Shown here one piece after another: positions 3,470 through 25,809 of a stretch of 35,670 nt of DNA (its first letter is position 1; each line of letters begins with the position of its first letter). The notes under the pieces were generated by a model. That model ran no database searches, had not been told where the DNA came from, and saw nothing but the letters and a program-made list of their open reading frames with translations. The stretch is from contig DXCD01000232.1 of the NCBI GenBank assembly GCA_019116185.1, positions 1-35,670 on the forward strand, given 5' to 3'. Origin of the DNA: Candidatus Mediterraneibacter stercorigallinarum (GTDB lineage Bacteria; Bacillota; Clostridia; Lachnospirales; Lachnospiraceae). The position numbers were made by a program, and so were the translations under genes.

Positions 3470-5231
3470 AACTGCTGCAATCTATGGGATCAACGGACCT
3501 GTCATCTACCTGAAGGGCAATACCGGCTTCTCTATGTCTGAAATGGTCTATGTAGGCAGCCAGAAGCTTGTCGGCGAGGTCATTGCCCTTGATAAAGACA
3601 TGACGACTGTCCAGGTATACGAGGAAACAACAGGCCTGCGCCCCGGCGAGGAGGTTGTGGCAAGCGGAAACGCTGTGTCCGTGACACTTGCCCCTGGCAT
3701 CCTGAACAATATTTTCGACGGTATCGAGCGCCCTCTGGAGCGGATCGCGGATTCTTCCGGCGGCGCTTTCATCACAAGGGGCGTCAGCGTAGACTCCCTT
3801 GACAGACAAAAAAAATGGCAGACACATATCACGGTGGAGAAAGGACAGTACCTCCACGGAGGGGACATCATCGCAGAAGTGCCGGAGACCCATGCCATTG
3901 TACACAAATGCATGGTTCCCCCGGATATAGAAGGAACCGTTGTGGAAGTCGTAACTGACGGTGAATATACGATTGACGAGACGCTGGTCACATTGGAGCT
4001 CTCCAATGGTTCAACAAAAAAGGTGACCATGACACAGCACTGGCCGATCCGCGTGCCGCGGCCGACCCATCACCGTTTTCCGGCTTCTGTACCCCTGATC
4101 ACCGGCCAGCGTATCATTGATACCATGTTCCCCATCGCTAAAGGCGGTACTGCTGCCATTCCCGGAGGATTCGGGACCGGCAAGACCATGACGCAGCACC
4201 AGATCGCGAAATGGGCGGACGCTGACATCATCATTTACATCGGATGCGGAGAGCGCGGCAATGAGATGACGCAGGTTCTGGAAGAGTTCGGCGAACTGAC
4301 CGACCCGCGCACCGGCAATCCTCTGATGGACCGGACCACACTGATCGCGAATACATCCAACATGCCTGTCGCCGCCCGCGAGGCAAGTATTTACACCGGG
4401 CTTACACTGGCAGAGTATTACCGGGATATGGGATATGATGTTGCTATCATGGCTGACTCCACGTCCAGATGGGCAGAGGCATTGCGAGAGCTTTCCGGAC
4501 GTCTGGAAGAGATGCCCGCGGAGGAAGGCTTCCCGGCCTACCTGGCTTCCCGCCTTTCTGCATTTTACGAGAGGGCGGGCATGATGCACAATCTGAACGG
4601 AACGGACGGCTCTGTAACCATCATCGGGGCTGTATCCCCGCAGGGCGGAGATTTCTCCGAGCCGGTCACACAGAACACAAAGCGTTTCGTGCGCTGCTTC
4701 TGGGGACTGGACAAGAGCCTTGCTTATTCCAGGCATTTCCCTGCCATCCACTGGCTGACCAGTTACAGCGAGTATTTAAACGACTTAAGCCACTGGTATC
4801 AGGATAATGTCTCACAGCAGTTCGTGGACTACCGCAACCGGCTGATGGCGCTTTTAAATCAGGAGAGCAGCCTTCTTGAGATCGTCAAGCTGATCGGAAG
4901 CGACGTGCTGCCGGACGACCAGAAACTGGTGCTGGAAATCGCCCGCGTCATCCGCCTTGGATTCCTTCAGCAGAATGCATTTCACAAGGATGACACCTGT
5001 GTATCCATGGAAAAGCAGTTCCTTATGATGGATACCATACTGTACCTGTACAAACAGGCTCGGACACTCGTGACCATGGGACATCCCATGTCCGTACTAA
5101 AGGCCGAGAACATTTTTGACCGTGTCATTTCCATCAAATATGACGTGCCGAATGACCGCCTGGAAATGTTCGCCCAGTATCACAGAGACATTGACGCATT
5201 CTACCAGAGAGTGCTTGAGAAAAACGCGTAA
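3462..5231 (+). CDS. ntpA: V-type ATP synthase subunit A (catalytic)
   Basis: Start trimmed to ATGCTTAAAACTGC after GGGAGGTG; Walker A GGFGTGKT, long non-homologous region, [27 protein letters not shown]. Confidence 0.97.
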
Positions 5232-5246
5232 GGAGGACCGGGAATC

Positions 5247-6638
5247 ATGTCAATTGAATATTTAGGCTTAAGCAGCATCAACGGACCTCTCATCGCTCTG
5301 GAAGGCGTACAGGGCGCGTTCTACGACGAGATCGTGGAATTCGTCGTCAATGGCACAGAGCGCAAGATCGGGCGTATCGTGGAGATCTACGAAGACCGGG
5401 CCGTGATCCAGGTATTTGAAGGCTCGGAAAGCATGTCCCTGAAAAACACGCACACAAAGCTTACCGGGCATCCCATGGAGATTGCCCTCTCGCCGGACAT
5501 GCTGGGACGTACGTTCAATGGGATCGGACAGCCCATCGATGACCTGGGTCCCATTGTTTCTACACTAAAAAGAGATGTCAACGGCCTGCCGTTAAACCCG
5601 GTGCGCCGTGAGTATCCCAGAAACTATATCCACACAGGGATCTCAGCCATTGACGGCCTGACGACTCTGATCCGCGGGCAGAAGCTGCCGATCTTCTCGG
5701 GGAACGGTCTTCCCCATGACCAGCTTGCCGCGCAGATCGTTAAGCAGGCGTCCCTTGGAGAAGATTCTGATGAGAAATTTGCTATCGTGTTTGCCGCGAT
5801 GGGCGTCAAGCACGATGTGGCGGACTTCTTCCGCAATACTTTCGAAGAAAGCGGCGTGGCGGACCATGTCGCCATGTTCCTGAACCTTGCGAATGACCCG
5901 GTGGTGGAGCGTCTGATCACTCCCAAGGTAGCGCTGACCGTGGCGGAATATCTTGCCTTTGAGCAGAACATGCATATCCTTGTCATCCTGACAGATATGA
6001 CTTCTTTTGCAGAGGCTATGCGAGAGGTCTCCTCCTCCAAGGGCGAGATCCCCAGCCGTAAAGGTTATCCGGGATATCTGTACAGCGAGCTTGCAACGAT
6101 TTACGAGCGCGCGGGCATCGTGCAGGGTGTAAACGGATCCGTGACTCAGCTTCCGATCCTGACCATGCCGAACGATGATATCACACACCCGATCCCTGAC
6201 CTGACCGGTTATATCACAGAAGGGCAGGTCGTGCTCGACCGCCCGCTCCACGGGCAGTCTATCTACCCGCCGATCAATATCCTGCCCTCCCTGTCCCGTC
6301 TGATGAAGGACGGCATCGGCGAGGGCTACACAAGAGAAGACCATCAGGATCTGGCGAACCAGCTCTTCTCCGCGTACGCTAAGGTAGGCGACGCGCGCAA
6401 CCTGGCTTCTGTCATCGGCGAGGACGAGCTGTCCCCCATTGACAAGAAATACCTGGAATTCGGAAAAGAATTCGAGGAACGCTATATCGGACAGGGACAG
6501 AACGAAAACCGCAGCATGGAAGAGACTCTGGACCTGGGCTGGGAACTCCTTGGACGTCTTCCGAAAGAAGAACTCGACAGGGTAGATACAAAGATCCTCG
6601 AGAAATATTATAAGCCCATGGATGAGGATGAAAGATAA
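5247..6638 (+). CDS. ntpB: V-type ATP synthase subunit B
   Basis: 463 aa; [67 protein letters not shown]. Confidence 0.97.
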
Positions 6639-25066: not shown

Positions 25067-25095
25067 TTGATTTCCTGCTGCCGTCATGTTATACT
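25067..25095 (+). promoter_or_regulatory. Promoter TTGATT-N17-TATACT for the queT transcript
   Basis: -35 25067-25072, -10 25090-25095, 17-nt spacer; implies a leader of about 204 nt. Confidence 0.65.
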
Positions 25096-25253
25096 ACTCC
25101 ACGTTGCAAAGCCCAATACAAGCAGGCTGTCACCGGCAGCCTGCTTTGCACGCTAAGGCGAAAACCAAGGTCTATCGGGCTTGCCGCCGATTCCCGGCGT
25201 AAAGGGAAGACAGAAAAGCCTTCCACCGGAAGCCTTTCCTGTCCGCTCAGGCG

Positions 25254-25296
25254 CGTGTGTTCGAGACCTTCCACACGTAAAACAAAACTAAAGGAG
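25254..25296 (+). promoter_or_regulatory. preQ1-I riboswitch overlapping the queT Shine-Dalgarno
   Basis: P1 CGTGTG (25254-25259)/CACACG (25272-25277), loop TTCGAGACCTTC with the UUCnAG-type motif, A-rich tail TAAAACAAAACTAAAGGAG; located directly before a QueT-family gene. Confidence 0.85.
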
Positions 25297-25305
25297 AACT
25301 GAAAA

Positions 25306-25809
25306 ATGAAAGTATTCAAACACATCAATGTGCATTTCATGGCACAGGCGGCGATGATCGCCGCGATCTATGTAGTGGTAACACTGCTTGGCGCATCTTT
25401 TTCATACGGAGAGGTTCAGGTACGTTTATCAGAGGCGCTGACCATTCTTCCGGTATTTACCCCTGCCGCGATCCCAGGATTATTTATAGGATGCCTTCTC
25501 AGCAATATCCTCGGCGGCTGCATCCTTCCGGATATTATCTTCGGAAGCCTCGCCACCCTGATCGGCGCGGTATTTACATGGACGCTGCGCAATAAAAGCA
25601 AATATCTGGCGCCACTTCCACCGATCATCGCAAATGTGCTCATTGTACCTTTTATATTGAAATATGGCTATATGTTGCCGCTTCCCATCCCGTTCATGAT
25701 GCTGACCGTAGGGATCGGAGAAGTGATTTCCTGCGGAGTGCTGGGGCTGATCCTGCATACAGCGCTTAGCAGATATAAAGGGCTGCTGTTTATAAAAAAC
25801 GCTCGGTAA
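25306..25809 (+). CDS. queT: QueT transporter family protein (queuosine precursor ECF S component)
   Basis: AAMIAAIYVVVTLLGASFSYGEVQVRLSEALTILPVFTPAAIPGLFIGCLLSNILGG; preQ1 riboswitch upstream. Confidence 0.93.
   Translation: MKVFKHINVHFMAQAAMIAAIYVVVTLLGASFSYGEVQVRLSEALTILPVFTPAAIPGLFIGCLLSNILGGCILPDIIFGSLATLIGAVFTWTLRNKSKYLAPLPPIIANVLIVPFILKYGYMLPLPIPFMMLTVGIGEVISCGVLGLILHTALSRYKGLLFIKNAR

Follow-up and report, generated by a model that had tools for sequence, protein, structure and literature searches.

A conserved upstream domain with a putative anti-aptamer loop in preQ1-I/queT leaders of the Lachnospiraceae

The preQ1-I riboswitch is the textbook example of a minimal riboswitch and has mostly been studied as an isolated aptamer of ~35 nt. 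The queT leader of Candidatus Mediterraneibacter stercorigallinarum raises the question of what a much longer leader adds to such an aptamer. The locus was analyzed within a stretch of 35,670 nucleotides (contig DXCD01000232.1, hereafter the window), on which the promoter, the leader elements, and queT are all on the forward (+) strand. A promoter (TTGATT-17-TATACT) can be read from the sequence at 25067–25095, the coordinates given for it in a preliminary description of the sequence, and places the start of the leader RNA at ~25102. The aptamer occupies positions 25254–25296 and is followed by queT, encoding a preQ1 transporter component (25306–25809; PF06177, E = 8.4e-49). The leader of 211 nt has a folding energy of −70.7 kcal/mol compared with a mean of −57.5 kcal/mol for dinucleotide shuffles (z = −2.71) and is present as a single copy in the source genome examined. 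A gene of the Uma2 family (PF05685, 24382–24993) is located just upstream of the queT promoter. The preliminary description had proposed an extra structured RNA domain between the promoter and the aptamer that might represent a second sensor or a duplicated domain.

The type I aptamer and its genomic context

Judged by its sequence, the downstream RNA is a type I preQ1-I aptamer even though its Rfam score is below threshold (RF00522, 24.2 bits, E = 0.0084 in 421 nt, gathering score 39). The aptamer P1 stem (25254–25259/25272–25277) is supported by covariation and encloses the aptamer loop (25260–25271), and the Shine-Dalgarno sequence AAAGGAG (25290–25296) is located in the aptamer tail. The UU, UC, and CUA signatures of the type I consensus (PMC11625349, PMC8752633) are all present: UU follows the 5' strand of P1, UC precedes the 3' strand of P1, and the A-rich tail ends with CUA..AGG. 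These signatures are kept across 53 aligned leaders and the window aptamer agrees with type I at the positions that define the pocket for two preQ1 molecules. Furthermore, the start of a queuosine transport gene (queT, PF06177) is the genomic context expected of preQ1-I. The Lachnospiraceae queT aptamers that were checked (window 25249–25297, L014, L061, and L077) score 23–25 bits, below the RF00522 cut-off, and would therefore be missed by standard Rfam annotation.

Overall, the window leader shares the aptamer core, the UU and UC signatures, the A-rich loop L3, the CUA tail adjoining the Shine-Dalgarno sequence, and the regulated gene queT with the type I riboswitch of known structure from Carnobacterium antarcticus (RF00522; PMC8752633), but differs from it in the low score and in a conserved 5' domain whose loop is the complement of the loop in the aptamer. 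The type I structure shows A12 as the ceiling of the binding pocket and U16 and C17 as parts of the pocket, with the start of the Shine-Dalgarno sequence on the tail strand (PMC8752633). The preQ1-II and preQ1-III riboswitches likewise regulate queT and resemble the leader as larger RNAs with pseudoknots; the leader matched neither of their Rfam families at E values up to 10.

Aptamer copies without queT that are cut exactly after ...AAAACAAAACT (window position 25289) were observed in L260, L262, L008, and L270; the first three include the leader and the copy in L270 (position 2030) consists of the aptamer only. Integrase genes (PF00589) are located near the cut copies in L260, L270, and L268 (L268 and L008 denote one and the same place); in L064 and L087, an integrase gene immediately precedes the queT aptamer. 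In L268, a cut and a full aptamer copy (303 and 12220) are ~12 kb apart, and the stretch between these two copies encodes an integrase and a sigma factor as well as a D5_N-type protein and, at 4748–5311, a protein similar to the Uma2-family protein of the window. These observations suggest that integrative elements use the preQ1-I/queT leader (aptamer, window 25260–25289) as an attachment site.

The conserved 5' domain and its optional modules

A total of 222 distinct leaders were compiled from 80 queT loci, a class scan, a family scan, and 80 further leaders. A blastn search with the leader against 397 genomes of the family returned two separate conserved blocks, the aptamer (25254–25298) and a block upstream of it (25161–25203). 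The typical Lachnospiraceae leader begins right after the promoter with CGUUGCAAAGCCC...AAAACCAAGGUCU...GGGCUUGC, which makes up hairpin P1, and continues with CGCCG-AUUCC-CGGCG (the S1 hairpin), AAAUGAAUC, and the aptamer. Short forms that lack the S1 hairpin also occur, and the non-Lachnospiraceae leaders examined contain no 5' element and have their promoter close upstream of the aptamer. Weak matches to the leader model in five genomes (L263–L267 in G025, G071, G118, G139, and G067) consist of long hairpins such as AAAAGCCCGGAAAAUCAAGGUUUUCCGGGCUUUU and are probably terminators or repeats that resemble hairpin P1 by chance.

Within the window, hairpin P1 is formed by GCAAAGCCC (25106–25114) and GGGCUUGC (25177–25184), and the S1 hairpin (25185–25199) by CGCCG (25185–25189) and CGGCG (25195–25199). 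Across 36 aligned leaders, 93% of the cells in these two hairpins are paired and both sides of the pair change at six pairs; the score was matched by none of 500 shuffles, and slid controls were 31–48% paired. Changes in the loop of the S1 hairpin are accompanied by changes in the downstream linker (GAUUC/GAAUC, GGUCAC/GUGCC with a bulged U, GGUUC/GAACC, and UUCCC/GGGAA), and in the window the loop sequence UUCC (25191–25194) can pair with GGAA (25205–25208) to form a second stem, S2. The observed S2 score was reached in only 2 of 5,000 trials in which linkers were re-dealt among leader types, and the outer pair of the S1 hairpin is A-U in 29 leaders and G-C in 12. As read from the concerted changes in loop and linker, the S1 hairpin is part of an H-type pseudoknot. 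Approximately 12 leaders keep hairpin P1 only, without the pseudoknot. S2 directly adjoins aptamer P1 in compact leaders, and the two helices could therefore stack. The proposed extra domain of structured RNA ahead of the aptamer is thus borne out among relatives, where the 25161–25203 block is conserved and P1, S1, and S2 covary.

The elements that the preliminary description had highlighted within this domain (25121–25160 and 25209–25253) are real: the hairpins AGCAGGCTG/CAGCCTGCT (25121–25129/25137–25145) and GACAG/CTGTC (25209–25243) as well as the mini-hairpins CGCTAAGGCG (25151–25160) and CGCTCAGGCG (25244–25253) are present in the sequence. However, they belong to dispensable insertions and the conserved part of the domain lies between them. 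Similarly, GCAAAGCCC was correctly located but had been given two alternative partners, of which GGGCTTGC (hairpin P1) is conserved whereas CTTTGC lies in a lineage-specific insertion. The first insertion, module H1 (25117–25160), consists of a hairpin and the mini-hairpin CGCUAAGGCG, is inserted in the loop of hairpin P1, and was found in just a few relatives (L002, L005, L033, L034, L044, and L108). The second, module H2 (25209–25253), consists of a hairpin and the mini-hairpin CGCUCAGGCG and is located between the pseudoknot and the aptamer in about a dozen relatives, among which its outer stem is formed by varied yet complementary sequences (row L251 was left out of this alignment). In both modules the hairpin is followed by CGCUNAGGCG, and their likeness was equalled by 3 of 5,000 mononucleotide shuffles, which agrees with the suggestion of a duplicated module. 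H1 and H2 are confined to the queT leaders of some relatives, and a blast search of 21 genomes with H2 as the query returned three strong matches, the window and two relatives of the same genus. The possibility that the modules are mobile hairpins was rejected because they were found in queT leaders only; they are probably spacers or scaffolds. A different, structured-looking insertion of ~100 nt occupies the H2 site, downstream of the S1 hairpin and ahead of the aptamer, in six other leaders (L014, L061, L075, L077, L175, and L236), and its 3' end again matches the loop of S1.

Complementarity between the P1 loop and the aptamer loop

The loop of hairpin P1 contains AAGGUCU (25167–25173), a key element that is absent from the features listed in the preliminary description. 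It is the exact reverse complement of AGACCUU in the aptamer loop (25264–25270), which corresponds to positions 10–16 in the Carnobacterium riboswitch numbering. Among 74 leaders chosen solely by their S1 hairpin, AAGGUC is present in all 74 (the seventh U in ~95%) and no other 6-mer is as constant; the corresponding numbers are 41–51 for the strands of hairpin P1 and 53 for TATACT. When all 6-mers of the aptamer were considered, an enriched upstream complement was found for AGACCU (60/153, compared with 2.2 in shuffles) and GACCUU (83/153, compared with 4.2) alone, such that AGACCUU is the sole aptamer segment with this property. The tie to this one type of aptamer loop is exclusive: in 69 leaders with other loops (AACC.. 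or ACCAU) neither the complement of their own loop (0/69) nor AAGGUC (0/69) was found.

The case for a pairing of AAGGUCU with AGACCUU is made by this co-occurrence and invariance and not by compensatory change. Both strands of the putative 6-bp core are invariant and no compensatory change was found in the loop–loop helix; the seventh pair shows no covariation with loop position 10, as leaders with UGACC mostly retain AAGGUCU. Some 64 leaders whose aptamer loop contains GACCUU, mostly from the same family, lack AAGGUC, which indicates that the element is not required, and common ancestry explains part of the co-occurrence of the two sequences. The best nested fold of the window (−70.0 kcal/mol) leaves both loops unpaired, so that a loop–loop helix can form, and a nested alternative with the 7-bp helix comes close to it in energy (−68.9 kcal/mol; the stacks of the helix total −12.9 kcal/mol). 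The helix has a low probability in nested folding (mean 0.06) because it crosses hairpin P1, and the loop–loop contact must therefore be assumed. RNAalifold proposed instead that AAGGUC pairs with the 3' strand of hairpin P1. This pairing was rejected; it displays no covariation and fails by inspection where the 3' strand is GGGUUU (L070, L146, and L106).

AAGGUC is separated from the aptamer by anything between 26 and 133 nt but from the −10 box by mostly 32–35 nt, as expected of base pairing and not of a compact DNA site. These distances bear on the possibility that AAGGTC and AGACCTT form an inverted repeat that acts at the DNA level, for example as the site of a transcription factor or of an integrase that uses the region for attachment. 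The cut aptamer copies, which end at one point beside tyrosine-recombinase genes, would fit such a repeat, but an arm distance this variable combined with a nearly fixed promoter distance, the fact that AAGGTC is part of an RNA hairpin loop with a covarying stem, and the absence of an integrase at the queT gene of the window make it very improbable.

A second possibility is that the 5' domain is a conserved leader that stabilizes the mRNA or provides a ribosome standby site, in which AAGG is structural or resembles a Shine-Dalgarno sequence and matches the aptamer loop by coincidence. Pairing of AAGG with the tail of the 16S rRNA is possible, and many queT leaders without AAGGUC also have a 5' hairpin directly after the promoter. 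However, the conserved string is AAGGUCU, of which AAGG alone fits the 16S tail, and it accompanies GACCUU aptamers only, with no other part of the aptamer having an enriched complement; this explanation is considered unlikely.

It is less likely still that hairpin P1 and the pseudoknot form an independent sensor and the leader a tandem riboswitch. The domain is compact, pseudoknotted, and conserved, and an unpaired AAAA is kept before AAGGUC. However, no Rfam family matches the upstream domain (a second copy of a known aptamer was rejected on the same grounds), the pseudoknot is dispensable, being absent in the ~12 leaders noted above, and its paired bases vary, and the most conserved unpaired string is already accounted for by its complementarity to the aptamer loop. 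In addition, a survey places preQ1-I among the riboswitch classes that are not found in tandem (PMC9481103). The second sensor suggested in the preliminary description is thus not supported.

A possible switching mechanism

The reading that is favored, with somewhat better than even confidence, is that the loop of hairpin P1 is a 5' anti-aptamer that kisses the ligand pocket, leaves the Shine-Dalgarno sequence free, and is displaced by preQ1. The leader would then be a two-domain translational riboswitch, in which the 5' domain (hairpin P1, usually with the H-type pseudoknot and here with two extra hairpin modules) displays the loop AAGGUCU for pairing with AGACCUU of the downstream type I aptamer in a loop–loop (kissing) helix of 6–7 bp. 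Such a helix would cover positions 10–16, including A12 at the ceiling of the pocket and U16 within it, as well as the CCUU that could otherwise hold the AAGG of the Shine-Dalgarno sequence. As positions 10–16 include parts of the pocket (PMC8752633), the pairing should be incompatible with the bound pseudoknot and leave the Shine-Dalgarno sequence free, hence the proposal that the anti-aptamer favors the ON state until preQ1 displaces it. At low preQ1 the kissing complex would keep the aptamer unfolded and queT would be translated; at high preQ1 (type I aptamers bind two molecules), formation of the aptamer pseudoknot would oust the 5' loop, the start of the Shine-Dalgarno sequence would be buried, and import would be shut off.

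Kissing loops are known from other riboswitches. The cobalamin riboswitch controls its ribosome-binding site by means of a loop–loop helix that is linked to ligand occupancy. The queT leader likewise has two loops whose complementarity to each other is conserved, but the partner loop of the cobalamin platform lies 3' of the aptamer and kissing accompanies the bound state, whereas here the loop is on the 5' side and kissing, as proposed, would rule out the bound state. In the guanidine-II riboswitch, two neighboring hairpins kiss by their loops, the ligand stabilizes the kissing, and both hairpins bind. The proposed contact resembles it in joining two neighboring hairpins of one leader and differs in that the second hairpin alone is the aptamer. 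No description of this leader or of a complementary 5' domain was found in the open-access papers searched, and the novelty is therefore provisional.

A broader proposal is put forward tentatively, at slightly less than even confidence: that a switching strand 5' of the aptamer is an architecture of the whole family, in which the kissing anti-aptamer is the first to form as the RNA is transcribed and determines the preQ1 threshold of the dual-ligand aptamer, and that lineages tune it by pseudoknot and hairpin spacer modules. For many gut Lachnospiraceae, the 5' anti-aptamer is probably a built-in competitor that keeps the preQ1 importer on until preQ1 is plentiful. If true, affinities and switching determined with isolated aptamers would not describe these cells, whose natural leader would contain a conserved competitor for the pocket, and a large family of gut bacteria would possess a riboswitch whose control strand lies 5' of its aptamer.
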